A DNA stretch of 64,000 bases from Bacteroidota bacterium (GTDB lineage Bacteria; Bacteroidota; Bacteroidia; B-17B0; Aurantibacillaceae). The stretch spans positions 1 through 64,000 of the forward strand of contig JAAFIQ010000018.1 in the NCBI GenBank assembly GCA_013298715.1, read 5' to 3'. Below, one piece after another: positions 8,570 through 57,296 of this stretch; positions within the stretch are counted from its first letter, which is position 1, and the number at the start of each line of letters is the position of its first letter. Made by a program: the position numbers and the translations under genes. The notes beneath the pieces were generated by a model. The model did not search any database, had not been told where the DNA came from, and saw nothing but the letters and a program-made list of their open reading frames with translations.

Positions 8570-9490
8570 TTATAAAAACCTTGGGTTAATCATTTTTTGT
8601 TTGAGTTTTGCCAAATCAAAGCCTATTATTACCTCATGGCTTGGCCCTAGGCTACGAGCGCTTCTTAAACCACTATCAAAACTATAGCCAACTCTAAAAC
8701 TATTTGTTACATAATATTGAAATAAGAAACCGGGCCCGTAGCCAAGTTTAGCAAATACCCCTAACCAGCATTTTTTATAAATGAAAGCATTAAAGTTAAC
8801 ATCAACAACCATTTTACCCGTATAGGATTTAAGAAGTAAAGTAGGAGCAAAAATGAAATTTTGATTTACTTGCCACGATTTGCCAATTGATAAAAATTGG
8901 TGGGTTCGTAAACGGTAAGTGTATAATGTATTGTTGGCAGTAGTAACTTCAAATAAATTCTTGGCAGCTATGTGGGTGGCGCTAAAACCAACAAAAAACG
9001 AGTTACTTCTAAAAAATATTCCTGAATTTACATCTAACGCATTAGCAACTTGGTTATTCAAATTATTTGAAAAATTTTCGTTTGTTTTAAATTCTAATTT
9101 ATTGTAATTGAACTGAAAACGGTTGTAACCTGCACTAACACCAAGCGATAATTTGTATTTGTTATTTAGTTTCAAAATATAAGCAAAGTTACCATAAGCA
9201 CCAATCATGTTTCGCGGGCCTAACACATCATTTAATAAGGTTAATCCTACACCAATATTTTTTTTGGCAAGCGGAGCATGCACCGAAGCGCAAATTGTTT
9301 GTGGGGCACCACTAAACCCACCAAACTGTTGTCTGGCAGATGCTATAGCGGCAATACCATCCCTTGCGCCTGCATACGCGGGATTAATAACTATTTGGTT
9401 AAATTGATACATGTTGTATTGCGGATCTTGCTGTGCCGAAGCCACAAGACTTGCAGCAAAAATTAAAAGTATAATAAAGTTTTTTGTCAT
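8570..9490 (-). CDS. PorP/SprF family type IX secretion outer-membrane protein
   Basis: 306 residues from ATG 9488-9490 (MTKNFIILLIFAASLVASAQ); a longer reading from 9517 would bury the signal peptide and is rejected. The mature N-terminus QQDPQYNMYQFNQIVINPAY is diagnostic of PorP/SprF: a short DPQ motif, then N-P-A-Y-A-G. Alternating hydrophobic strands ending in GFDLAKLKQK fit a beta-barrel of the outer membrane. SprF-like proteins are needed for secretion or attachment of a specific large adhesin encoded beside them. Here the neighbours are three candidate cargo genes upstream in the operon and a PorE-like anchor downstream. The gap to the upstream stop is 8 bp. Confidence 0.92.
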   Translation of the reverse strand: MTKNFIILLIFAASLVASAQQDPQYNMYQFNQIVINPAYAGARDGIAAIASARQQFGGFSGAPQTICASVHAPLAKKNIGVGLTLLNDVLGPRNMIGAYGNFAYILKLNNKYKLSLGVSAGYNRFQFNYNKLEFKTNENFSNNLNNQVANALDVNSGIFFRSNSFFVGFSATHIAAKNLFEVTTANNTLYTYRLRTHQFLSIGKSWQVNQNFIFAPTLLLKSYTGKMVVDVNFNAFIYKKCWLGVFAKLGYGPGFLFQYYVTNSFRVGYSFDSGLRSARSLGPSHEVIIGFDLAKLKQKMINPRFL

Positions 9491-9498
9491 AATTAGTT

Positions 9499-12132
9499 TT
9501 ACAAAATTTCTACCCAACCTTTGGTAATTTTTTTAGAATTATTAATTTCTACTTCAATAACGTAGTAGTAGGTGCCTTCTACAACATTTCTATCGGCCGG
9601 CCAGGCTCGTTCTTTGTTATCATAATTTTTAAACTCTTTTAAAAGCAAGCCCCATCTATTAAAAATAGAAACTTGATTAGGGTATTTTGAAATATTATCA
9701 ATAATAAATACATCATTTAAACCATCGCCATTAGGGGTAACAACGTTATGGGTTTTAATTTCGCAATTAGTGTCCATTTCAATACTTATAGAACGTGTGT
9801 AACTACAATTATTAGCATCTTCTACAACCGCAAAATAGGTTGTATTCTGAATTGGTTTTACAAAAATTGTTGGTGTAATTTGACTTGTATTCCAAGCAAT
9901 TGAAGCTATATTTTGAATCGAAAGGTTTACAGAGTCACCCTCACAAACTTTATTTGAACTCGCAACTATTTCATTGGTGAATTCTGGAAAAATATTAACA
10001 GTGCTTGTTGCAAAGGTTTTACAACCAAACTGGTTTGATCCTTCAAAAATTAGATTAGTTGCGGTAGAAAAATAATCGTCGTAGTTATTGCTGGCAAGTT
10101 GAGTAGAATTTAAGGAGTAGGTGTTTCCACCATTCAATACAAATTTAGTGAGTCCGTCTTTGCAAGTTGTTGTATTGGTGGGAACTACTGTGATAGAGGG
10201 ATTAGGGTTTACATTCAGAGGAATTACGGCAGTTGTATCGGTACAAGAATTGCTTTCACCAATAACTTTTATTGACGCGTTTAAGGACTGTGGTGTAAAT
10301 GTAATTGCTCCAGAATTGGTAAATGTTTGCGAAGGATTAAAAAGTTGTAAGGTATAAATTGTAGCACCTGCTAGTGTTATTGTTACACTATTAAATAGGC
10401 AAATTGTTTGTGGGCTGTAGCTCACCGATATTGTTGGGCTTGGAGTAACATTAATTTGAACTGTGCGTGTTCTTATACATCCAGAGGTTATTTCGGTTGA
10501 GCTTATTGTGTAGATTGTTGAGGTGGTGGGAAAAATACTTGGCACCGTGGCTGAAGATGTGCTTCCTACTTGGTTACCAGGACTAATAGTATAAGTAAGG
10601 TTTGTACTTGCAGTTGCATTTATTGTAATAGATGTGCCTTGACAAATTGATGTATTTGAAGCAACAGCATTAAAATTTGGACTGGGTAAAAAAGCTGGCG
10701 TAAAACTGTTTAACGAATTAAGGCTGCACGTGTTGGCCGATTCTGCAATAGGCAATGTGTAACTTACTTGGCTATTGATTAAATTATTAGTAGATACTAC
10801 TAATGTGTTTGCGTTAATTGAACTCGGCAACCAAGTTATGCTTCTTGGGTTATAGCTAAAGGTTGTAGCAACAGTATAAGAATTACCTTGACAGATAGAT
10901 GTTGATGGAGTGCCAATAACTGAAAAATTATAACTTCTGTTATACATGATTGCAGGTCCAAAATCAATTGTAGGGTTATTTCCTATTAACAATATGTCGG
11001 GTAGTCCATCACTATTAAAATCTTCAACTAGCGCATGTTTTGGCACATTGCTTATTGTGCTTGTAATAATATTAATAGGATTAGGTGCAACACTATACTG
11101 GGTAGGGGATAATCCGGGATTTATTTTAATAAAACCAGTTACGTTATCCAAGCCGAGAACATCTTTTTTACCATCATTGTTAAAATCCTTATAGAAGCAA
11201 AAACTCCTTACATTATTTGTACCAACGGTAATGTTATTTGCTGTGGTAAAAGTTGGGGCTGAACTCACCAAAATGTTTTGTGGCGTTCCTGCTTGAAAGC
11301 AAAACAAATCGCTTTTTCCATCGTTTGTTACATCTTCTAACAACAGACCAAAAATACTTTGGGTTGTTATGTTTACCGTGCTGTATAATCCAACAAAACT
11401 CGAATTCACGGATGTTTGATGAACTGTAACGATTCCATTGTTCACACTCCCTACAGACACTGCAAATTCTTTTTTACCATCACCAGTTACGTCGCCAGCA
11501 GCATAACTCCATTGACTTACATCGTTTGATAAACCACCACCTAAAATTCCATAAAACCCAGTTCCAGCCTGAACGGTTGAAAAATTTGAAATACATTTTA
11601 TAATTCTCATATTTAAACCAGCAGCATCAAACCCTCTGGTTATAATCTCTTCACTTCCATCATTGTCTAAATCATCTGTTTCAACAAGTCTTAATGTTAA
11701 GTTAGGAAAACTTACTGTATTTGGTACTACAACTTTAACAAAGGTGTTAGAGTTGGAAGGAGTTGTATTATTTAATATGGTTAGAGAATTGTTTGTAATT
11801 GCAACAAGATCCGCATCGCCGTCATTATCCAAATCGCCAGCAGAAAGATCCGTGAAGTTTAAAATTGTAAACGCACTCGCTACTGTAAAAGTTGTTCCTG
11901 TATTGTACAAAATGTTTATTTGATTGGTTAAGTGATTAAAAAAGGCTATGTCCTTTTTACCATCTGTATTAAAATCTCCAACCGCAGCACGTGAGGTTTT
12001 AACTTTTGGTAAACCAAGCGTATCTGGTTTTCCAAAACAAAAGCCATTATTATTGTAAGGTAAACTAAATTGAGCCTTTGATATGAAAGAAAACATAACA
12101 CAGAGAAATAATATTCGAATTACTTTTTTAAT
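9499..12132 (-). CDS. FG-GAP repeat surface protein with B-type T9SS C-terminal domain; ATT start proposed
   Basis: From the proposed start the protein has 877 residues. The first ATG (12094-12096) gives only MFSFISKAQ, too short for a signal peptide. Reading upstream in frame adds KKVIRILFLCVMFSFISKAQ after an ATT codon at 12130-12132, a perfect export signal preceded directly by an in-frame TAA. The N-terminal half has FG-GAP/VCBS-like repeats (GDFNTDGKKDI, GDLDNDGDADL, EDFNSDGLPDI), predicted to form a calcium-binding propeller. Ig-like repeats follow. The C-terminus is a gliding-motility-associated domain (VTPNGDGLNDVF...IFNRWG...YDNK...GTYYYVIE), the B-type T9SS signal. The start lies 4 nt after the upstream stop. 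Confidence 0.85.
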   Translation of the reverse strand: MKKVIRILFLCVMFSFISKAQFSLPYNNNGFCFGKPDTLGLPKVKTSRAAVGDFNTDGKKDIAFFNHLTNQINILYNTGTTFTVASAFTILNFTDLSAGDLDNDGDADLVAITNNSLTILNNTTPSNSNTFVKVVVPNTVSFPNLTLRLVETDDLDNDGSEEIITRGFDAAGLNMRIIKCISNFSTVQAGTGFYGILGGGLSNDVSQWSYAAGDVTGDGKKEFAVSVGSVNNGIVTVHQTSVNSSFVGLYSTVNITTQSIFGLLLEDVTNDGKSDLFCFQAGTPQNILVSSAPTFTTANNITVGTNNVRSFCFYKDFNNDGKKDVLGLDNVTGFIKINPGLSPTQYSVAPNPINIITSTISNVPKHALVEDFNSDGLPDILLIGNNPTIDFGPAIMYNRSYNFSVIGTPSTSICQGNSYTVATTFSYNPRSITWLPSSINANTLVVSTNNLINSQVSYTLPIAESANTCSLNSLNSFTPAFLPSPNFNAVASNTSICQGTSITINATASTNLTYTISPGNQVGSTSSATVPSIFPTTSTIYTISSTEITSGCIRTRTVQINVTPSPTISVSYSPQTICLFNSVTITLAGATIYTLQLFNPSQTFTNSGAITFTPQSLNASIKVIGESNSCTDTTAVIPLNVNPNPSITVVPTNTTTCKDGLTKFVLNGGNTYSLNSTQLASNNYDDYFSTATNLIFEGSNQFGCKTFATSTVNIFPEFTNEIVASSNKVCEGDSVNLSIQNIASIAWNTSQITPTIFVKPIQNTTYFAVVEDANNCSYTRSISIEMDTNCEIKTHNVVTPNGDGLNDVFIIDNISKYPNQVSIFNRWGLLLKEFKNYDNKERAWPADRNVVEGTYYYVIEVEINNSKKITKGWVEIL

Positions 12133-12136
12133 TTAT

Positions 12137-12886
12137 TTAATTTTTTAAAATTTCTATCCAGCCTTTAATTGGCTTGCTTCCGTTTCCTAATTCAATAACA
12201 TAAAAATAGGTAGTGGGTTGCAAATTATCATTAGCAGGTGGCCAAACTTTATCTTTATTGTCATAGCTTATAATTTCTTTTTGTAAAATACCGTATCGGT
12301 TAAAAATACTCACCTTGTTATTTGGAAAATCTTCAATATTATCAATCGTAAAAATATCATTTATACCGTCGCCGTTTAAAGTAATCCCATTATTAATTTT
12401 AATTACACAAGGTCCATTTACATCTTCAATTATTATTGGAGGTTTAGTTAGAATTATTGAATCTCCTGTAGGATTTTTTATAATTACCTTAATTGAGTAT
12501 GTTCCCGCTGTTAAACTGTCAATAGTGGCACAATTCCCCTGCGGGCATGCTGAAGCAGGTGTCCAAATGTAACGCACTGTTTGAGTTGGTAAAATATTAG
12601 TAAGTGAAGTGGAAATATTTCCATCGTTTTTATCACTACAAGTAACATTATTCCAAATAGCAAATAAACTTGGGCCAATTTTTTCGGGTTGTAAAAATCC
12701 TTGGGTAATAGTTATCGAATTAATTCCTACCGTTTCAACAAAAGGTTCTCCAATGTTATCTGTGTAAATAAAATTTGAATTTAAAGTTGCTGTTTGCCCA
12801 GCGCTGTTTAATACACTATTGTTAATGGTTTGTGAATTTAAACATCCAAAACAAAAAAATAAATATGCAATAAAAAAGTTTTTCAT
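12137..12886 (-). CDS. Small secreted protein with B-type T9SS C-terminal domain
   Basis: 249 residues from ATG 12884-12886 (MKNFFIAYLFFCFGCLNSQ, signal peptide); an in-frame TTG three codons earlier is not needed. Residues 20-165 contain a short Ser/Asn-rich region and one Ig-like fold fragment with Cys pairs. The C-terminal 85 residues (TLNGDGINDIFTIDNIEDFP ... IFNRYG ... WIEIL) form the gliding-associated sorting domain and closely resemble the C-terminus of the next gene, so the two genes share an ancestor domain. It lies 1 nt after the adhesin stop and 4 nt before the next gene, so translation is probably coupled. Function beyond secretion is unknown. Confidence 0.85.
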   Translation of the reverse strand: MKNFFIAYLFFCFGCLNSQTINNSVLNSAGQTATLNSNFIYTDNIGEPFVETVGINSITITQGFLQPEKIGPSLFAIWNNVTCSDKNDGNISTSLTNILPTQTVRYIWTPASACPQGNCATIDSLTAGTYSIKVIIKNPTGDSIILTKPPIIIEDVNGPCVIKINNGITLNGDGINDIFTIDNIEDFPNNKVSIFNRYGILQKEIISYDNKDKVWPPANDNLQPTTYFYVIELGNGSKPIKGWIEILKN

Positions 12887-12887
12887 T

Positions 12888-15767
12888 TTATTCAATTACA
12901 AAATAATTGATGATGAAATAATCTGCTGGTGTCCAAGGAATTGCAGAGGCTGTGTTGTTTTTTATTCTTATCCTAAAGAAAGTATTTGTTTGGTCTATTA
13001 CGTAAAACGAATATTTATCGCCATTGGTTGTTTTGATAACCGGGCTTAAAAAAACTGTTGTAGTTGAGCCTGAGTAATTTTTAATGAAAGGCACATTTAT
13101 ATCCACGTACCCTCCAACACTTATACTACTAGTAATTAAGGTATTATCAAAAATAATCGTTCCTCTTACATCCGAATTATTGGTAATTGTAAACGTATTT
13201 CCTGTATTTAAAAATCCGCCTGTGGCAATTACTACTGTGGGAGTTGTCATTGTAGATAAAGAACTAGCTTTTAAATGCGCATCTTCTAATTCAAGTCCAA
13301 TTGCGGCGGTAGCGGTCCCACTTCTTGCTTTAATTGCAGCAGAGGTTGTTATAGAGCTATTATTAACAGAAACTAAGGTTGGTGCCGTATTACTTGGATT
13401 CATGTTTTCAATATAAGCAGCGTTACCTGTTCCCATACTTGTTTTATGAGTGTATAATGAGGCATTGTTTCCTAGGCTTAAAAAGGATGCGGCAAAGCCA
13501 CTTCCAGTAGTGGTAGCAAATAATGTAGCGAAACTATTTCCGGCATTTGTGTTTTCAAAATAGGCGGTACTGCCAGTGCCAGTGCCGAACTTATTTGCGT
13601 AAAGCGAGGCAGCCGATGATGAGTTTACAAATGAACCTGCATAACTTACTGAGGAGCTTGAAACAGCTGATAATGCAGGAGATGCGTTTGAAGCATTATT
13701 ATTTTGAGCATAGATGGCAGAACCTTGTTCACCATTATTTTTTATACCATAAATTGAATTTCCTGCCCCAGTATTTGAACCATAAATACCTGCGGAGTTT
13801 GCACCGCCTGCAACACCGAATACAGCATGTGAATTACTGCCATTTCCATTGGTAATAGCTTGTAAAGCAGGATTATTGTTTGTCGTATTTGTTATATTTG
13901 TTTTAATTCCTGCGCCGGTTCCAAAATGATCAACCAAAAGCCCTTCAAATGAATTTACAGCATTAGTCATTGTTATTACGGCACCTTGACCCGCGCTAAA
14001 TGTTTTCAAAGCAATAAAACTTGGCCCTGAACCTTGATTAATTGCCCTAACTCCACCCACATTGACGTTTGAGGAATTTGCTACACCAAACACACCAGAT
14101 CCTGCCCCAGTATTTACTCCATACACACCAGCGCTTAGCGGGTTAGCTCCATTTGTTCTGCCTATAACACCAGAACCAGTTGAAGATGTAGGAACGGTTG
14201 TAACGTCACCAAAAATTGCAGCGTTTCCATTTGTAGAGATACCATGAACACCATAACCGGCTCCATCATTAGAGCCATAAACCCCTCCAGAATTAGGGTT
14301 TGCAGACGAAGTTCTTCCCCAAATACCGTTACCAGCCCCTGCTGTAGTTAATGTATTTTGACCGTAGATAGCTGCAAAACTTGAGTTTTCAATTACCGTT
14401 AACTTCCCAGCGTTGCTAACCGTACTAATCCCAATAGCAACATAATTTGTATTACTTGCTAAAGAAACAACGCTGTTGGTTTGTACCCAAGGTGATAGAC
14501 TCGTTAAATTTACAGTGTTTGTATTTGGACCAGATTGTAAGGTATTACCTACTAAGCTTAGTAGGGGAACAGTTACATTACTAGGAGTCCAAGTAGCACC
14601 ACTATAAGTTAGCACCTGTCCAGCACTTGGATTAGTATTAGAAATAGGAATGCCTCTAATGGCAACGACCGTGCTATTTGCAATTGGACCAACTACGTCG
14701 TTAGCTAAATTTGGGATAGCAGTAGTTTGAACGGTAAACGAGCCTCCAAGGCTAGATGTTACAAGTGTGCCATTTGGCTGAGAGAATGTTTGAGGCACTA
14801 ATCCTACATTAAAATTAAAACCACTTGATGGAGAAACTGTAAGGTTAGCATTAGAACTGGTGATTGTTGGAGATACCAATGTAATTGTACCACCAAGATT
14901 TGAAGTATATGAATTGAATAGTTGGGTAAAGGTTTGTGAAGGAACACTCACATTAAAAATGTTACCTACAGTTGGTGTTACTTGCGCATTCCCTGTGCCA
15001 GTTAAAATAATATTTGTTCCGGTTGAAGCACTCAAGGTGGTTGGTGTCCATACCCCGCTAACCAGTTGTAAAACTTGACCATTTGTAGGAGTTGTTATTG
15101 AAATAGGAATATTCCTTAAAGCAACTACCGAAGCAGAATTTGAGCTTCCAATTACATCTCCGGTTAAACTTGGGGTAATGACACTTGTTATTGGTGTTCC
15201 TCCAAAATTTAAAGAAAGAATATTACCGGCTGGGGCGAAATTTATGGTAGGAACAGCTACCGAAACCACATAAACGTTGGGTTGAGGATTATTAACTGCT
15301 GCAATACCATTGCCTGTTATGGAAGGAGATGCAGTTGAGGCAAGTGTGTAATTTTTACTTCCAATAGTCAAAACACCTGAACTTAAGTTCGAGTTTACAT
15401 CATTCGCAAAAAAAGCATAAGGTACCGAGTTTAAAGGTTGAGGTGGAAGCGGATTACCGTTAATACTAACAACTAGCGTCATGCCTGAACCATTTTCCCA
15501 GCCAAAATTTGGAAGTGGATTGGATGAACTGCCAATGGTTGTGCTGAACAAACCTAATGAATTAGTGGTTACGGGTTGACCTCCAGAATAAAACTGGTTT
15601 CCGTTTTTATTAATCAAAAAACCTAACGTAATAGATTGGTTGGCCAAAGGATTTCCCGCAGCATCGCGCGCCACGCCTTGGTAATTAATTTGATTCGGCG
15701 ATTGTGCAATCAGGTTTCCACCAAAAAATCCGACTATTAATACAAACCAAATTAGATTTTTACTCAT
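12888..15767 (-). CDS. Secreted tail-fibre-like adhesin, first gene of surface operon
   Basis: 959 residues with signal peptide MSKNLIWFVLIVGFFGGNLI(A). The mature start, NQINYQGVARDAAGNPLANQ, is a widespread N-terminal module of large secreted Bacteroidota proteins; it precedes a stretch ending SVPYAFFAND. The middle is a low-complexity Asn/Ser/Thr/Val-rich array. Residues about 470-790 repeat the pattern G(V/I)YG.N.GAG.(G/S)(V/I)(Y/H)G, as in phage tail-fibre and trimeric adhesin stalks. No B-type sorting domain is visible at the C-terminus, unlike its neighbours. It probably forms a fibrous surface protein served by the PorP-like and PorE-like genes downstream. The exact substrate or surface bound cannot be inferred. 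Confidence 0.75.
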   Translation of the reverse strand: MSKNLIWFVLIVGFFGGNLIAQSPNQINYQGVARDAAGNPLANQSITLGFLINKNGNQFYSGGQPVTTNSLGLFSTTIGSSSNPLPNFGWENGSGMTLVVSINGNPLPPQPLNSVPYAFFANDVNSNLSSGVLTIGSKNYTLASTASPSITGNGIAAVNNPQPNVYVVSVAVPTINFAPAGNILSLNFGGTPITSVITPSLTGDVIGSSNSASVVALRNIPISITTPTNGQVLQLVSGVWTPTTLSASTGTNIILTGTGNAQVTPTVGNIFNVSVPSQTFTQLFNSYTSNLGGTITLVSPTITSSNANLTVSPSSGFNFNVGLVPQTFSQPNGTLVTSSLGGSFTVQTTAIPNLANDVVGPIANSTVVAIRGIPISNTNPSAGQVLTYSGATWTPSNVTVPLLSLVGNTLQSGPNTNTVNLTSLSPWVQTNSVVSLASNTNYVAIGISTVSNAGKLTVIENSSFAAIYGQNTLTTAGAGNGIWGRTSSANPNSGGVYGSNDGAGYGVHGISTNGNAAIFGDVTTVPTSSTGSGVIGRTNGANPLSAGVYGVNTGAGSGVFGVANSSNVNVGGVRAINQGSGPSFIALKTFSAGQGAVITMTNAVNSFEGLLVDHFGTGAGIKTNITNTTNNNPALQAITNGNGSNSHAVFGVAGGANSAGIYGSNTGAGNSIYGIKNNGEQGSAIYAQNNNASNASPALSAVSSSSVSYAGSFVNSSSAASLYANKFGTGTGSTAYFENTNAGNSFATLFATTTGSGFAASFLSLGNNASLYTHKTSMGTGNAAYIENMNPSNTAPTLVSVNNSSITTSAAIKARSGTATAAIGLELEDAHLKASSLSTMTTPTVVIATGGFLNTGNTFTITNNSDVRGTIIFDNTLITSSISVGGYVDINVPFIKNYSGSTTTVFLSPVIKTTNGDKYSFYVIDQTNTFFRIRIKNNTASAIPWTPADYFIINYFVIE

Positions 15768-21583: not shown

Positions 21584-22419
21584 ATGTTTAAAATACCCAG
21601 CGTCTACTTGCTTTGCTCTATACTAATTTTAAATTCGTGTTCAACAAATACTAACAACAAAAGAATGGAAAATAATGAAACCAAGTTTGCACCGTAGATA
21701 ATATTTTAGAAAATTTAGATCAGGTTGGTCATGTACCAGATATTTACCTAACAAGCTTCAGTAATATACATTATGATTATATTGGAAGTAAGTTAAGCAT
21801 TTATAGCAATAAAAAAAAATGGGCAATTATCTGTGAGGCTTTGGTTTTTAATGGGAACGAACAAAACATTGAAATACATTTATCTTATTTTGGTAATTGC
21901 TTGTTAAATATGAATAGGACTAACAGAAATGGTAAAGAAGGCATTTGGAATGAAAAAAGAATAGAATTAATGAGCGAAGTGAATGTTAATCGGTTAACTT
22001 CAAATACAATTTATATTAATAGGAAGTTTGACAGTGTTGTTATCAATGGTTCAAAATTTAATATATGTTACGATTTATCGGAATATTATAAACTTAATAT
22101 TGATCCTTTGATTTCTAAGAAAAAAGATGAATTTATAGATATTACATCGTATTTAAAATATTTACATGCGCATTATCCTCATTTGTTATTCACAAGTGAG
22201 GAAAGTAAAAAAGAATTTTTAGATGAGGATATTCCAAAACTAATGGAATTGAATGAATGGTATACCGAAGATTGTATGTATAACTGGGATGGAGGATATG
22301 TTGGAACGCTTCCAAGCCAAATTGAAACCTATAAAATGTTAGCTAAAGTAATAGTAACAGGAGATACATCATACTATAAGCCAACTATAAAACCTAACAC
22401 ACATTGGAGTAATTGGTAA
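21584..22419 (+). pseudogene. Lipoprotein (DUF7003-like) gene broken by a single frameshift
   Basis: ATG 21584 opens a lipoprotein signal peptide (MFKIPSVYLLCSILILNSCS) that ends at TAG 21695-21697. The rest of the protein continues at once in another frame from about 21694 (VDNILENLDQV...) to 22419, with no start codon of its own near the junction. Adding one base restores 279 continuous codons. The downstream part (KWAIICEALVFNGN, HLSYFGNCL, and a C-terminal WDGGYVGTLP...) resembles the DUF7003 family of Bacteroidota as I remember it; that call is weak. Either the gene is dead or one base is missing from the assembly. Confidence 0.7.
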
Positions 22420-23402: not shown

Positions 23403-25510
23403 TTATTGTTTTACAACTTTTAAGACTTGATTCTGATTATGACTTATAACTTTTAAATAATAAACACCATTTGCAAGATTACTTAAATTGATATTAACGG
23501 AATTTTTATCTGAGCTTAAGCTTAAAACTTTTTTACCTGTTAGATCAATCACTTCAAAAGTTTTGTTTAAACCATTTGGTAATTCAATTGTAAATATACC
23601 GTTGGTAGGATTTGGATACGCGTTTAATCCTGAGAGTGCTGTTTTAGTTTTAATAGTTGTGCAAAGGTCAACAATAACAGTTGTAGAGCTTGAACTTGAA
23701 CAGCCAGTTGTAGCGTTTGTATAAGAATACATTGGTATAAACGTGCCTCCGCTAGCGCCAGGAGTAAATACGCCGTTTGATACGTTACTACCTGTAAATA
23801 TACCGCCTACAGGGCTACCTATTAAAGCAACTGTTCCGCTATTAATACAAATAGATGGGCTGGCGGAAGACAAACTTACATTTGGTAAAGGATTTACAAT
23901 AAGGGTTTGCGAATTAGTTCCAGAACAACCGTTAGCCACAGTTCCTGTTGCGGTGTATACTGTTGTTAAGGTTGGAAAAACAACATTAGTCGCTCCATTT
24001 ACGCCATTATTCCATGAATAAGAATTTGCACCACTTACAGATAAAGTAGCAGTTTGACCAGTGCAAATAGGAGAATTATTCGTTACTGTAATTGTAGGTG
24101 CGGCATTTACCAATACACTTGCTGTTGAAGAACCTACACAGTTTACAGAGCTTGTTCCGCTTATAGTATAAACTGTTGTTACTACTGGGGCAACAATGGC
24201 GCTTCCGCCGGTGTAGCTATAACTTACTGCACCATTTGGTAAAAATGTATGAGACAATCCTGCACAAATAGTACCGTTATTAACTGTTATTACGGGTAGT
24301 GGTTTTATTACTACAACTTTTCCAATGGCAGCAGAGTCTTTACAACCATTGGTATTCGTTTTTATCATGTTGTAAACACCCGATGTGCTTACACCTAGAG
24401 CGTTAGTGGTGGCTGAAGGAATAGCAACGCCATTTTGGTACCATTGGCTAGTTCCGCCACCAGCACCTGTTAAGGTAATAGTTGTACCTATACAAGCTGT
24501 TGTGGGCCCACTTATACTAACAATAGGTAATGCATTTTGTATAACCGTTACACCATTAAAAGAACTATCTTTTCCGCAAGTATTATCAGTAAGCATACAA
24601 TTGTATTTACCAACAGTTTTTGCGTAAGTGGATTGCGTAGTTGCGCTTGGTATAGCTACTCCATTTTTATACCATTGGTAGTTAGTACCAGCAACAGCTG
24701 TAAGTTGGGTGCTATCGCCAACACAATAAGCGGGAGTGCCAGTAATGGCTCTCGAACAATTAATTACAGCTAAACCTCTAAGATCATCTGGGGTATTACC
24801 AAAATTTGTTGTCGTGATCTCATTGGTGTTATATTTATTAAACGAGCTATTGATGTTAGAAGTAATAAACGTATTGCCCCAATATTTACAGCGCCAAATG
24901 TTTCGGCAGTGGTATTCGTGGTAATACTTGTTATATTATACGGTGGAAACGATTGAATTTTTTCGAATATTACACTTGTACTATTGCCTGACCAATGGTA
25001 GATAAAATTATCAGAAGGGTTGTAACAAATAATTTCGCCATCGGCACCATTACCCATTGTTTTTAAAAAGGTAGTGCTGGCGTTGGTAGTGTCAATTCTA
25101 TAAAGAGATTCTGGTATATAAGGCGAACCAGCACCATTACCTGTTGCGCCAAACAATGTATCGTTTTTAAAAGTGATTGACGAAAAATTACCACCAGTAC
25201 CAAAGTTACCAACAACAGTAACAGAAGCAGTCGCTAAGTTTAATCTTCCTAATACTCTTCCAGATACTCCTGTAACTTTACAAACTACATAAATTCTGCC
25301 ACTTGTAGGGTGTTTGGTTAAGGCAGTAATACCAGTTACTACAGATCCGCTTATAACAGGGGCAATACGTCGGTGAATGGTGGTAAAAGAAATAGTATCC
25401 ATTACCCAAAGCGAATCTTAAAAAGGGCTAGCACCAATTAAACGTTGAATTGTTTGGGCATTAGTTGCGCCAAAAGAAAATAGTATTAAGAAGAATAAAA
25501 TTTTTTTCAT
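23403..25510 (-). pseudogene. T9SS-secreted Ig-repeat protein with nonsense codon and frameshift
   Basis: ATG 25508-25510 opens a good signal peptide (MKKILFFLILFSFGATNAQT). An in-frame TAA at 25418-25420 interrupts LIGASPF/DSLWVMDTISFT, and the frame then continues unchanged. A second lesion lies at the CCCC run 24877-24880: adding one base joins AVNIG to NTFITSNINSSFNKYN and restores 703 codons. The N-terminal third looks like a propeller-like repeat protein. The rest has Ig-like repeats (CVGDSTQLTAVAGTNYQWYK) and an A-type T9SS sorting domain (YPNPTNGIFTIELPN ... GVYYLKVISHNQNQVLKVVK). Two independent lesions favour a true pseudogene over a single assembly error. Confidence 0.8.
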
Positions 25511-35443: not shown

Positions 35444-36206
35444 TTGCTTTAAATAATATTTTAATATTACTAATTGTTTTTGAGTAATACAACAACCCAA
35501 TTAATGCTGTAATTTGCAAGGTGCTTAAACCTAGAATTGTGAAGGTGTTTTCTTTTAGCAATTCAATAAAAAAGCGGTAAAACAAGTAACTAATTAAAAA
35601 TAGTTTGAATTTGCCGCCATCGGCAAGGATGTTTTTTTTATCGAATTTGAAAATTATTACCCGAATAAAAACTAAAAAAAGTAATTCATAAAGTGGAAGT
35701 GGATGTCTGAGGATTCCGTCTCCAAAATTAATACCAGTAAAAAGTTGGGTTTCTTTTCCAATTGTGCCATCACCTAGACCTTCACAAAAACAACCAATTC
35801 GTCCAATAATTAAACCAAGTAGAATAGGGTAGGTCATTAAATCGCCACTTGAAGTTGTAACCCCAATTTTCTTTTTAATAAACTCAACACAAAATAAACC
35901 ACCAACAAAACCTCCTAAAATAGTTTTGTTGCTAAATATATATACCAATTTATTTGGCGCGTTTAATAAGTCGGTAGGATTTTCTAGAACTCCTACGAGC
36001 CTAGAGCCTATGAGCGAACCAAAACAAACTGCTACAAATATTATAAGTCGGTTAGTTGAACTTATTGTATCAACACTTCTTTTCTTTAAAAATAAATAAT
36101 AACGAAATCCTAAAAAAATTCCTAAAATTTCGGTTATTAAATGGGTTGAAATTTCTGTGGAGCCTAAGCGAATATTTATTGGAAAATGGATGGTGGGTTG
36201 AATAAT
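35436..36206 (-). CDS. Lgt-like (prolipoprotein diacylglyceryl transferase family) membrane protein; ATT start proposed
   Basis: About 256 residues, multi-pass. The only standard start (TTG 35948) would remove 86 residues of clear family sequence (HFPINIRLGS, then LITEILGIFLGFRYYLFL, then SLIGSRLVGVLENPTDLL). Upstream only ATT 36204-36206 or ATT 36201-36203 remain, directly after an in-frame TAA. Lgt features are GGFVGGLF, GRIGCFCEGLGDG (the GRxGxFxxG signature) and HPLPLYELLF. The His-Gly-Gly catalytic segment of true Lgt appears as TILGG, so transferase activity on lipoproteins is doubtful. It overlaps the radical SAM gene by 8 bp. The two probably work as a lipid-modifying pair. Confidence 0.8.
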   Translation of the reverse strand: MIQPTIHFPINIRLGSTEISTHLITEILGIFLGFRYYLFLKKRSVDTISSTNRLIIFVAVCFGSLIGSRLVGVLENPTDLLNAPNKLVYIFSNKTILGGFVGGLFCVEFIKKKIGVTTSSGDLMTYPILLGLIIGRIGCFCEGLGDGTIGKETQLFTGINFGDGILRHPLPLYELLFLVFIRVIIFKFDKKNILADGGKFKLFLISYLFYRFFIELLKENTFTILGLSTLQITALIGLLYYSKTISNIKILFKANA

Positions 36207-39837: not shown

Positions 39838-41451
39838 CTATTTTTTAATAATACTCGCTTCCACCCGTCTATTTATTGCTCTGGTTTCTTCGTTATTTGA
39901 TTTTACTAATGGTTGTGAGCCTCCAAACCATTTTAATTTTATTTGTTTTGATAAAACATCTTTTGATAAAAGATACTTCTTTACTTTTTTAACGCGTTGC
40001 TTACTAAGTTTTTTATTTGCTTTGCTGTTACCTACATAATCAGTATGTCCACTTAAAAGTATTACTGTAGTTGGATTTTCCTTTAAAAAAGTACTTAACT
40101 TTATTAAGGTAGGATAGGAACCTTCTAATAATACATCTTTTGATAGCTCAAATAAAACGTTTTTAAGTTGTATTGTCTCCCCAACACTGATTTCATTAAA
40201 ATTTAATTCCTGATTAACTGAGCCGTTTTTCGTTTTGTTTTCGTTTTTCTTTTCAGAATTATTTACATTATCGAGCTCTACGTTTTTGTATTCAATTTTA
40301 GAAAGTTTCTTTTTACCTCTAAAAACATAGGGCTCTTTTACCGCACGTAAAAAAATTGTTGTATTCGTACTATCAATTATATCAAGTTTTAAGCTATCAA
40401 ACTCCTTTTTGTAATGTTTACTATTGTAATAATTTTTGTATCTTACTTTAGAGTTCAAATAAGAAATATCAAAAAAATTATACAACCAAACTTGATGCGA
40501 AATTAATTCGTTATCGCACAATTGAGCAATTAAAAGAAAGTTATGTTCAGTATCGCAAACATTGTATTTACTAGGAAATAAAGGTTCTCCTAAGTTGTTA
40601 TAAAAGTTAACTTCGCCATTTAAAAATTTATCATTGTTTCGTAAGTCTTCACTAAAGTTGCAAAAGCGTTTTATTGTCCAACAAAACTGGGCATAATTTT
40701 TTTCGAAATTTTCGTTAACCCATTTGATGTTAGAATAAACAGCTTTAGTAAAAAGTGCTTTATTTGCTAATAAAGTATCGTTTATTGCGCTCAGCTGGAT
40801 AGTTAATTTCCTGTGTTCAGTAGTGTCATTATTTCTTAAATTAAATTGAATTTTATGTGCAAGAGTTGTGCTCCTTTCAGATAATTGTTGTAATCTATTT
40901 ATATCACTTGATATATGCTTCTTATAATATTTATTTTTGTAAGTCGAAACTAAAAGATTGCGAATTTCTTCTTTTGCAACATAAACATTGTCAAAACAAT
41001 CTGCCGCTTCCTCAATTAGCTTAATAGGTTTGCTTTTCTCAATCTTTACTTTATTATTATTTTCAGAATAATACTCAATTAAATACTTATGAGTTAAATA
41101 AATTTTCCCCAACTCTCCTTCAATTTTTTTAAGTTCTGCTAATACTTTATTATGTTCTGCTTGGGTTACGCAGTTATTGTTTTTTTCAATGGCATCAAGC
41201 ATTTCCTTTTTAATAGTATAAAGGTACACTGGTTTTTTGGGCTCTCTAAAACCTTTAAATGTGTTATCATTCTTCAAATAGTTTGCATAATCTATTTTAA
41301 AACGCAAAAAATCTTCGTAAAACAAGTTTAATTCAATTATTAAATCGTTGCAACATCCAACATATCTATTCAGTTGTATTACCGATTCGTTTTGCGCTTG
41401 GATGTTAAAAGCGAACAACAACCACAAAATAATATGTTTAATTTTTTTTAT
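39838..41451 (-). CDS. OmpA-family peptidoglycan-binding protein; ATA start proposed
   Basis: 537 residues if begun at ATA 41449-41451; the first standard start is TTG 41427. The ATA reading gives KKIKHIILWLLFAFNIQAQ after the initiator, a complete signal peptide, whereas TTG leaves only MWLLFAFNIQAQ. The N-terminal 390 residues are helical, Lys/Glu/Asn-rich and unique. The C-terminal domain (LKNVLFELSKDVLLEGSYPT, then LSGHTDYVGNSKANKKLSKQ, then INRRVEAS) is OmpA-like with the Asp and Arg that bind peptidoglycan. The start lies 7 nt after the stop codon of the oxygenase gene, so coupled translation is plausible. Confidence 0.82.
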   Translation of the reverse strand: MKKIKHIILWLLFAFNIQAQNESVIQLNRYVGCCNDLIIELNLFYEDFLRFKIDYANYLKNDNTFKGFREPKKPVYLYTIKKEMLDAIEKNNNCVTQAEHNKVLAELKKIEGELGKIYLTHKYLIEYYSENNNKVKIEKSKPIKLIEEAADCFDNVYVAKEEIRNLLVSTYKNKYYKKHISSDINRLQQLSERSTTLAHKIQFNLRNNDTTEHRKLTIQLSAINDTLLANKALFTKAVYSNIKWVNENFEKNYAQFCWTIKRFCNFSEDLRNNDKFLNGEVNFYNNLGEPLFPSKYNVCDTEHNFLLIAQLCDNELISHQVWLYNFFDISYLNSKVRYKNYYNSKHYKKEFDSLKLDIIDSTNTTIFLRAVKEPYVFRGKKKLSKIEYKNVELDNVNNSEKKNENKTKNGSVNQELNFNEISVGETIQLKNVLFELSKDVLLEGSYPTLIKLSTFLKENPTTVILLSGHTDYVGNSKANKKLSKQRVKKVKKYLLSKDVLSKQIKLKWFGGSQPLVKSNNEETRAINRRVEASIIKK

Positions 41452-55729: not shown

Positions 55730-56956
55730 TCAGGTTAATTCCTTTACTAAATCTTGCTTTGTGAAAATTCTTACAGGATACAACGCAGCCACAAAACCAA
55801 TGAGCATTATGAGCGAAAAAATCCAAACAAAATCTTGCAATTGCAGTTCTATTGGGTAATATGGCACGACAGAATCATCCCCGTACTTTACTAAATGAAA
55901 TTGAATTTGTAACCAACAAACAAAAAGCCCAAACACTAAACCAATTGCGGCACCTACTGATGTTATCAACATCCCTTCGCGCATAAAGATATTGCGGATG
56001 GTTTGTAAATCAGCACCCAAACTAAATAAGGTTTTAATATCTTTTTTCTTTTCAATAATAAGCATGGTTAAAGCGCCAATAATATTGAAAGTTGCTATAA
56101 TTAGTATAAATGCAAGAATTATAAATGTGGCAAATTTTTCAGTTTCTAAAGTTTTAAATAACACATCGTTTAGTTGGTATCTGTTTTTTACAACAAAATC
56201 TTTCCCAAGTAATTCATTTAATTTTTTTTGAATTTCGCTTTGATTATAACCCTCATTACATTTAATTTCTAAGGCACTTATTTTGCTTGGCTCATCAAAC
56301 AAAGCACGTGCGGTATTTATATTTACAAATGCAAATTGGTAATCTAACTCATCAGTTAGTGTAAAAATACCAGTGGGTGTGCAATAAATTTGATTTAAAT
56401 TATCTTCGGGATTCAAACTGTTATTTTTTCCTTTAATTGGGCTAAAAACCGTTAGTTCAGAGCTAAGCTCACCAACCCCAATTTGTAACTGACTTGCAAT
56501 TCCATTCCCTAAATAAATTGTATTTTTTTTTGAAGTGTCGCTCAAAGTGTAAGTGCCATCGTAAATTGCGCTATCTACTTTTGTAACTAAATTATAATTA
56601 AAGTCAATGCCCTTAATAGAAACCAAAGCTTGTCTATCATTATTTTTTAAAAGAGCTTTATCATTAAGTGTTTTACTTATAAACTTTACACCTTCCATCC
56701 CTTTAATTTTTGCAAGTGTAGATTCTGGCAACTCAAAAAATTTTCCTTTGGCAATTGTTATTTTAAAATCTGGTTCAAAGGCATTATATAGATTGGCTAC
56801 TGTGCTAGTTAGCCCATTCAACGTACTCAGTATAATTATAAGTGCGGCTGCCGTAACTGCAATTGCTGAAATACTAATCCAACTAATAATATTAATGGCA
56901 TTATTACTTTTTTTGGAAATTAAGTAACGTTTGGCTATGTAAAAAGAAAAATTCAG
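55730..56956 (-). CDS. LolC/LolE-like ABC transporter permease (FtsX fold); CTG start proposed
   Basis: 408 residues from CTG 56954-56956. The first usual start (TTG 56821) would delete the N-terminal segment NFSFYIAKRYLISKKSNNAI and the first transmembrane helix (IISWISISAIAVTAAALIII), both hallmarks of the LolC/E family. Upstream codons (TTT, AAG, ATA) precede the homologous region and are out of place, so CTG at the usual initiator position is the best fit, giving (M)NFSFYIAKRY. A large periplasmic domain follows, then three helices ending PVRIFTKQDLVKEL. It starts 4 nt after the stop of rbfA. Expected to act in lipoprotein release; the ATPase is not nearby. Confidence 0.85.
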   Translation of the reverse strand: MNFSFYIAKRYLISKKSNNAINIISWISISAIAVTAAALIIILSTLNGLTSTVANLYNAFEPDFKITIAKGKFFELPESTLAKIKGMEGVKFISKTLNDKALLKNNDRQALVSIKGIDFNYNLVTKVDSAIYDGTYTLSDTSKKNTIYLGNGIASQLQIGVGELSSELTVFSPIKGKNNSLNPEDNLNQIYCTPTGIFTLTDELDYQFAFVNINTARALFDEPSKISALEIKCNEGYNQSEIQKKLNELLGKDFVVKNRYQLNDVLFKTLETEKFATFIILAFILIIATFNIIGALTMLIIEKKKDIKTLFSLGADLQTIRNIFMREGMLITSVGAAIGLVFGLFVCWLQIQFHLVKYGDDSVVPYYPIELQLQDFVWIFSLIMLIGFVAALYPVRIFTKQDLVKELT

Positions 56957-56960
56957 AAAC

Positions 56961-57296
56961 TTATTTTTTTAGCAGTTCTTCAATCTTCATGGCATAATCA
57001 AGCGAGTCGTCTATAAAAAAAGTTAAATCAGGTACAACCCTTACTTGTTTACCAATTAGTAGACCAAGTTTTTTTCGGATTGGCGTTTTATTGGTTTCTA
57101 CCAATTTAAAAATGGCGTCGCGTTTGTTGCCCATAATACTTAAGTAAACTTTTGCATAACCTAAATCGGGGCTTACACGCACCACAGTAACAGTAATAAA
57201 GCCACCACCAAAAAGGTTACGAGCTTCGCTTCTAAAAATTTCGGCTAATTCTTTTTGTATTAATTTGTTTACTTTTTGTTGTCTAACGCTATCCAT
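56961..57296 (-). CDS. rbfA: Ribosome-binding factor A
   Basis: 111 residues of the KH-like RbfA fold: SVRQQKVNKLIQKELAEIFR, VTVVRVSPDLGYAKVYLSIM, then IRKKLGLLIGKQVRVVPDLT and FIDDSLDYAMKIEELLK. All conserved blocks are present. It binds the 30S subunit and helps mature the 5' end of 16S rRNA. The stop TAA lies 4 nt before the proposed CTG start of the LolC/E-like permease, a pairing of rbfA with lolE that recurs in Bacteroidota. Confidence 0.95.
   Translation of the reverse strand: MDSVRQQKVNKLIQKELAEIFRSEARNLFGGGFITVTVVRVSPDLGYAKVYLSIMGNKRDAIFKLVETNKTPIRKKLGLLIGKQVRVVPDLTFFIDDSLDYAMKIEELLKK

Follow-up and report, generated by a model that had tools for sequence, protein, structure and literature searches.

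Where does a gene begin when its reading frame offers no ordinary start codon at the place where its relatives begin? The question is raised by a minus-strand gene of a Bacteroidota bacterium, lying within the 64,000-nucleotide stretch of contig JAAFIQ010000018.1 (assembly GCA_013298715.1, positions 1 to 64,000) that is here called the window. The gene (9499..12132) encodes an FG-GAP repeat protein of 877 residues (PF13517) with a C-terminal CHU_C type IX sorting domain (PF13585; 68.3 bits against a cut-off of 27), as is characteristic of type IX secretion cargo. Its start codon is very probably the ATT at 12130..12132. An in-frame TAA (12133..12135) directly precedes this codon and bounds the open frame, which then reads ATT AAA AAA GTA ATT CGA ATA TTA TTT CTC TGT GTT ATG. 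Neither ATG, GTG nor TTG occurs between that TAA and the ATG at 12094..12096 (MFSFISKAQF), which is the earliest canonical start in the frame and sits inside the hydrophobic stretch of the signal peptide. Near-cognate codons are unremarkable by themselves, accounting for 15% of the codons that separate a stop from the first ATG; it is the position of the ATT, and not its near-cognate identity, that counts.

That position is shared with other genomes. Upstream on the same strand lies a further CHU_C-domain gene (12137..12895; 252 residues from a mechanically listed TTG), whose TAA stop (12137..12139) is 4 nt before the ATT. All 60 genomes searched contained some match to the FG-GAP protein, many of them to a domain only, and from these 15 relatives were picked by hand on frame length and neighbouring gene or gene order; G031 was excluded, as its contig ends at the locus. 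The proteins are only distantly similar, with low identity, and orthology thus rests largely on gene order. The upstream CHU_C neighbour ends alike in the relatives (GWxE... stop), and in all 16 genomes—that is, G000, which holds the window, and the 15 relatives—the FG-GAP gene starts 1–26 nt past this stop, with 13 of the 16 within 12 nt. For four of these loci, the check for an upstream frame was empty on account of cut ends, and gaps were taken from the sequence instead. The relatives use ATG (11: G018, G025, G007, G036, G033, G032, G008, G027, G026, G012, and G020), TTG (3: G028, G034, and G021), or GTG (1: G006) as the start, and G000 has none of these codons at or near that place, a property that it shares with near-cognate start genes of the infC type.

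The predicted signal peptide points to the same codon. By a hydrophobicity heuristic and inspection, a Sec signal peptide would be present only with a start at ATT 12132 or at a second in-frame ATT (12118..12120). Counted up to the cleavage motif [AGS]|Q, the signal peptides of the 15 relatives span 19–24 residues, and ATT 12132 yields one of 20. The upstream context was scored with a matrix of positions −16 to −1 derived from ATG-started signal-peptide genes in a 464-kb sample, comprising the window and 20 further stretches (G000 is 4.01 Mb in 46 contigs, with 33% GC in the sampled part). ATT 12132 scores 5.6, the highest of the three candidate codons, compared with a median of 2.1 and an upper quartile of 4.1 for the 92 ATG signal-peptide genes. 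Its gap and signal-peptide length match those of the relatives and its context is the best; hence, it is the best candidate start. An earlier note on this DNA had proposed this ATT as the likely start, bounded by the in-frame TAA and 4 nt from the previous stop. Those coordinates are right, and the check it suggested, alignment of the 5′ ends of orthologues, bears out the proposal: the 15 relatives begin just past the upstream stop, as the ATT does. Its statement that this codon was the only way to a normal signal peptide was too strong, the second ATT having been overlooked.

How would a ribosome come to start at such a codon? The account favoured here, by a modest degree, is that the FG-GAP gene starts at ATT 12132 and that ribosomes finishing the CHU_C gene reinitiate there. 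The gap of 4 nt falls within the range of about −8 to +10 nt typical of coupled gene pairs, and the adjacency is kept across the 16 genomes. Ribosomes ending the upstream gene would halt 4 nt before the ATT, such that stop and ATT would share one ribosome footprint. Because of this shared footprint, the post-termination ribosome, as a 30S subunit or 70S particle, could reinitiate at the near-cognate codon without a search, with the initiator tRNA presumably reading ATT 12132–12130 as methionine. The FG-GAP protein would then be made in small amounts compared with its upstream partner, and its synthesis would respond to initiation factor 3 (IF3), a low ratio perhaps being the purpose of the arrangement.

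Termination-reinitiation is best supported at a second locus in the window. An FtsX/MacB_PCD permease gene (55730..56956, minus strand, identified by domain match), which we take to be of the lolC type, starts with CTG at 56954..56956, 4 nt past the TAA (56961..56963, minus strand) of a gene that is presumably rbfA. All 46 of the 46 genomes searched matched the permease, and the 30 loci listed from them were combined with 42 loci from a named collection; seven of these 72 loci encoded identical proteins and were excluded, leaving 65. In the named collection, the best listed matches of the G000 protein come from metagenome genomes that carry the labels Bacteroidetes, Bacteroidia, or Sphingobacteriaceae, and a search of a plasmid collection with the lolC region gave no match. 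For L063 and L179, where the script had picked an internal CTG, the start was reset by hand. Start codons across the 65 loci are TTG (36), CTG (19), GTG (6), and ATG (4). An rbfA stop lies 2–10 nt upstream in all 19 CTG loci, G000 included, versus 18 of the 46 others (Fisher p 2.6e-6). Counting any upstream frame of at least 60 codons alters a single locus (L175), giving 19/19 versus 19/46 (p 3.4e-6), and in 27 of the 28 loci away from rbfA, no other frame of at least 60 codons ends there.

The possibility that the CTG is an internal leucine codon of lolC was rejected. An NTG codon stands six codons before a conserved [IV]A.RY motif in 62 of the 65 loci; in the other three it is displaced by no more than one codon. 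The script sought NTG 4–10 codons before the motif, and therefore some NTG was favoured, but not a fixed place. TTG and CTG together make up 33% of leucine codons within the lolC genes, and many of the frames open just one codon upstream. The fixed NTG thus indicates a start-codon constraint. Judged from these loci, the CTG start of the G000 gene is real and common to other species, and the lolC loci show that, on this comparative evidence, a rare start codon beside a stop can persist across many related species.

The 464-kb sample contains further cases. Among its 334 mechanically called genes (379 kb; 45 in the window; some spurious frames), six lack a usable canonical start: the FG-GAP and lolC-type genes, two more in the window, and two outside it. 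The six were found by heuristics and inspection, by which short extensions without a signal peptide would escape. They amount to some 2% of the called genes (4 of the 45 window genes versus 2 of 289 elsewhere), although the window was chosen for such cases and does not give a fair rate. A gap of 0–10 nt to the upstream stop is found in three of the six compared with 31 of 226 ATG-first genes (binomial p 0.037). One of the three is an OmpA-domain gene on the minus strand, which likely starts at ATA (41449..41451), 7 nt past the stop of a PhyH gene (41461–41459); its frame opens ATA AAA AAA and gives a good signal peptide by the heuristic. When 41 genomes were searched with it, the matches listed outside G000 covered only the C-terminal part of the protein, none the N terminus.

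The other three are not adjacent to a stop. The Lgt-family (lgt) gene of the window likely starts at ATC (36189..36191, minus strand), where ATC CAT TTT CCA aligns with the start codons (ATG or TTG) of five relatives: G020 and G006 (ATG CAT TTT CC), G003 (ATG CAG TTC CCC), G010 (ATG ACA TTT CCA), and G021 (TTG GAC TTC CCT); a sixth, G026, was uninformative. A second, weak Lgt-family match lies in G000 at C1:8497. Outside the window are a Reg_prop/Y_Y_Y/SpoIIE sensor gene with a propeller (L113, 10282–13530, minus strand), for which CTG or ATT is the sole apparent signal-peptide start and whose relatives G007, G006, and G012 have ATG nearby, and a RhuM/Fic-domain gene (L102, 161–1126, minus strand), which has no ATG, GTG, or TTG before codon 33; here, ATA agrees with the place at which relatives, G023 and G048 among them, start with ATG. 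The earlier note had grouped the FG-GAP start with near-cognate starts at 36206, 41451, and 56956, three of the set being 4–7 nt from an upstream stop. The three gaps are confirmed (4 nt at 12132, 7 nt at 41451, and 4 nt at 56956), and the relatives' lolC loci uphold the CTG. The ATT at 36206 is probably the wrong lgt codon: it lies five codons too far upstream relative to the lgt relatives and has a poor context score (−2.6), and no gene of the mechanical list ends near it.

A DUF7003 gene (21600–22419, plus strand; PF22535, 6e-48) was considered as a further near-cognate case (at 21679) and set aside. It has no canonical start for 53 codons, and a frame break is the more likely explanation; none of 37 relatives gave a match. 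A short open reading frame with a lipoprotein-like start lies in another frame just upstream, which suggests a frame break, whether real or arising in assembly. A Por_Secre_tail/Ig_7 gene (23403–25402, minus strand) is likewise apparently split over two frames, which overlap at 24770–24935 near a G run, a probable frame break. These two apparent breaks show that either the assembly or the strain has flaws.

Several observations weigh against reinitiation at the FG-GAP ATT. The ATT is found at this start in G000 only, all 15 relatives having ATG, TTG, or GTG. At lolC, 18 rbfA-adjacent loci use TTG, GTG, or ATG, and thus coupling does not need CTG. Because the species are related, phylogenetic pairs were also taken: the lolC protein tree yields nine independent pairs that differ in coupling (10 under the wider upstream-frame rule), and CTG goes with coupling in three to five of them, the opposite occurs in none, and the rest show no difference (p 0.0625–0.25). 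Pairs taken from the CTG side give three to four of five (p 0.125–0.25). The pattern is seen, for example, in the sister pairs L159/L161 and L055/L043, in each of which the first locus is coupled and has CTG and the second is uncoupled and has TTG. All informative contrasts point one way, but with fewer than six such pairs they are too few to reach significance once phylogeny is taken into account. Furthermore, widening the gap window to −8..10 nt raises the binomial p for the sample to 0.109, and half of the six near-cognate genes lack an adjacent stop: lgt, the propeller gene of L113, and the RhuM gene of L102. The literature adds to these points. IF3 acts in Escherichia coli reinitiation too, its excess reducing reinitiation about threefold, and a seemingly coupled recJ GUA start was rescued only with IF3 mutations (PMC2268962), so that reinitiation in E. 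coli is not free of proofreading; moreover, ATT is reported to yield about 0.3% of the output of ATG in that species (Hecht et al., as cited in PMC10666635).

Other reports are more favourable. Non-AUG reinitiation has been described with mutant initiator tRNAs, and inactivation of the ribosome recycling factor leads to random starts at non-canonical codons past the stop in E. coli (PMC2268962); the start codon is relaxed in calicivirus reinitiation (PMC5972666); and E. coli reinitiation is limited to very short distances (PMC10666635). Among the matches listed, no title or abstract reports a lolC CTG start or near-cognate reinitiation in Bacteroidota, most subscription journals lying outside the search. 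The earlier suggestion of termination-reinitiation thus stands in part: adjacency to rbfA at all 19 CTG lolC loci speaks for it, the independent pairs lean the same way without reaching significance, and three near-cognate starts have no neighbouring stop. It is plausibly the likeliest mechanism for the stop-adjacent cases; it cannot account for every near-cognate start in the sample.

Known systems resemble the FG-GAP locus in part. infC, which encodes IF3, has an AUU or AUC start under IF3 autoregulation (PMC5472188) and shares with the FG-GAP gene a near-cognate ATN start of a full-length gene; however, infC has GGAGG 4–5 nt upstream, whereas the FG-GAP start has no Shine-Dalgarno sequence, lies 4 nt past a stop, and has no known autoregulation. 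The GTC start of Streptomyces sigR (PMC5472188) is likewise a non-canonical start of a conserved gene, one that keeps output low and is repressed by IF3, but sigR possesses its own ribosome-binding site, in contrast to the stop-adjacent ATT. Closest in arrangement are the termination-reinitiation or coupled pairs, such as trpBA, galT-galK, and M13 gene V-VII (PMC12548453, PMC2268962, PMC10666635), in which same-strand operon genes start a few nt from a stop. The junctions in the available parts of those papers are ATGA or GTGA ('NTGA') or similar, unlike the FG-GAP ATT, and ATT starts are named only as a possible rare exception (PMC10666635). The termination upstream ribosome-binding sites (TURBS) of caliciviruses and influenza B (PMC5972666) share the relaxed start codon and a post-termination ribosome placed at the start; they differ in being eukaryotic and in tethering the ribosome by an RNA motif.

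Relaxation of the initiation machinery was also considered, and no sign of it was found as far as was looked. infC was found in 40 of 41 genomes, 24 of them in the genus, and 30 loci were examined, of which the motif missed six (including L144, in the genus). With L120 (a second copy, with ATG) and loci outside the genus left out of the count, 15 loci read by eye (L146 and relatives among L129–L148) have GGAGG 4–5 nt before ATC (10) or ATT (5), as expected for IF3 autoregulation. Bacteroidota otherwise hardly use Shine-Dalgarno sequences. The IF3 gene of G000 is present and matches positions 2–169 of 170. G000 also has a tRNA-Met whose anticodon stem takes the initiator form GGG-CAT-CCC, the search having been aimed only at that form and a reversed control pattern having also matched twice. 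On the strength of these three observations, start-codon proofreading looks normal, and the starts described here look like known biology in a new combination rather than a new code.

The foremost alternative accepts ATT 12132 as the start and holds that initiation at this codon is de novo, by a free 30S subunit aided by the A-rich, unstructured leader typical of Bacteroidia, with the adjacent stop reflecting operon packing. The high context score at the ATT agrees with this, as does RNA folding: the region is less structured than shuffled versions of itself (z +1.43; 190 of 200 shuffled sequences fold as well or better). Folding at three sites showed nothing notable. Near-cognate starts without an adjacent stop (lgt, L113, L102, and infC) also agree, and upstream adenines promote initiation in Flavobacterium johnsoniae (PMC6847099). 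Against de novo initiation stand the confinement of CTG at lolC to rbfA-adjacent loci and the start position 1–26 nt past the stop, which is kept in 16 genomes, and it is regarded as a credible but rather unlikely explanation.

Less likely again is that the start codon was recently lost or mis-sequenced, leaving the FG-GAP gene a dying or faulty copy. The restriction of ATT to G000 and the two apparent frame breaks in the window would fit such a loss or error, but the frame stays open for 877 codons with FG-GAP and CHU_C domains. An error rate high enough to strike several starts among about 1000 start-codon bases would be expected to disrupt many of the 334 frames as well, and the lolC CTG is common to other species, which argues that genuine near-cognate starts occur in the group. 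As a general cause of near-cognate starts, sequencing error is thus ruled out by lolC conservation and the open frames, the single ATT apart.

A start at the second ATT (12120–12118), giving MRILFLCVMFSFISKA|Q, is improbable. It would retain a basic residue and the full hydrophobic stretch, lies 16 nt from the stop and hence within the relatives' range, and has a context score of 3.2, above the median; however, its 16-residue signal peptide (counted, like that of the ATG, by eye on the translation) falls outside the 19–24 of the relatives, and it loses the common MKK opening found in 24 of 92 ATG signal-peptide genes. The ATG at 12096, for all that it is the earliest canonical codon, is almost certainly not the start, as it leaves eight residues to the cleavage motif, scores −1.2, and would give a protein without a normal signal peptide, whereas a protein with a CHU_C sorting domain is expected to have passed through Sec first.

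Downstream of the FG-GAP gene, and completing the minus-strand order of CHU_C gene, FG-GAP/CHU_C gene, and PorP/SprF gene, lies the PorP/SprF gene (8570..9490), with an ATG 8 nt past the FG-GAP stop (the mechanical list has an earlier TTG). G000 also appears to possess a very extensive repertoire of type IX cargo genes, with at least 150 Por_Secre_tail matches (150 of 191 candidates scored).

Reinitiation at ATT 12132 would sit within a broader proposal, advanced tentatively and with more doubt than confidence: the genus may relax start choice beside stops, such that CTG (lolC, 19 loci) and ATT or ATA (single genes) would be stable reinitiation starts with low output, fixing the ratio of two proteins of an operon and reverting to TTG or ATG when the gene is uncoupled. 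Gene finders restricted to ATG, GTG, and TTG would trim away the signal peptide, or the first transmembrane segment, from the products of such genes. The conserved CTG, found only beside a stop, constitutes a natural series of related species for testing relaxed reinitiation starts, in a phylum where Shine-Dalgarno sequences are hardly used.

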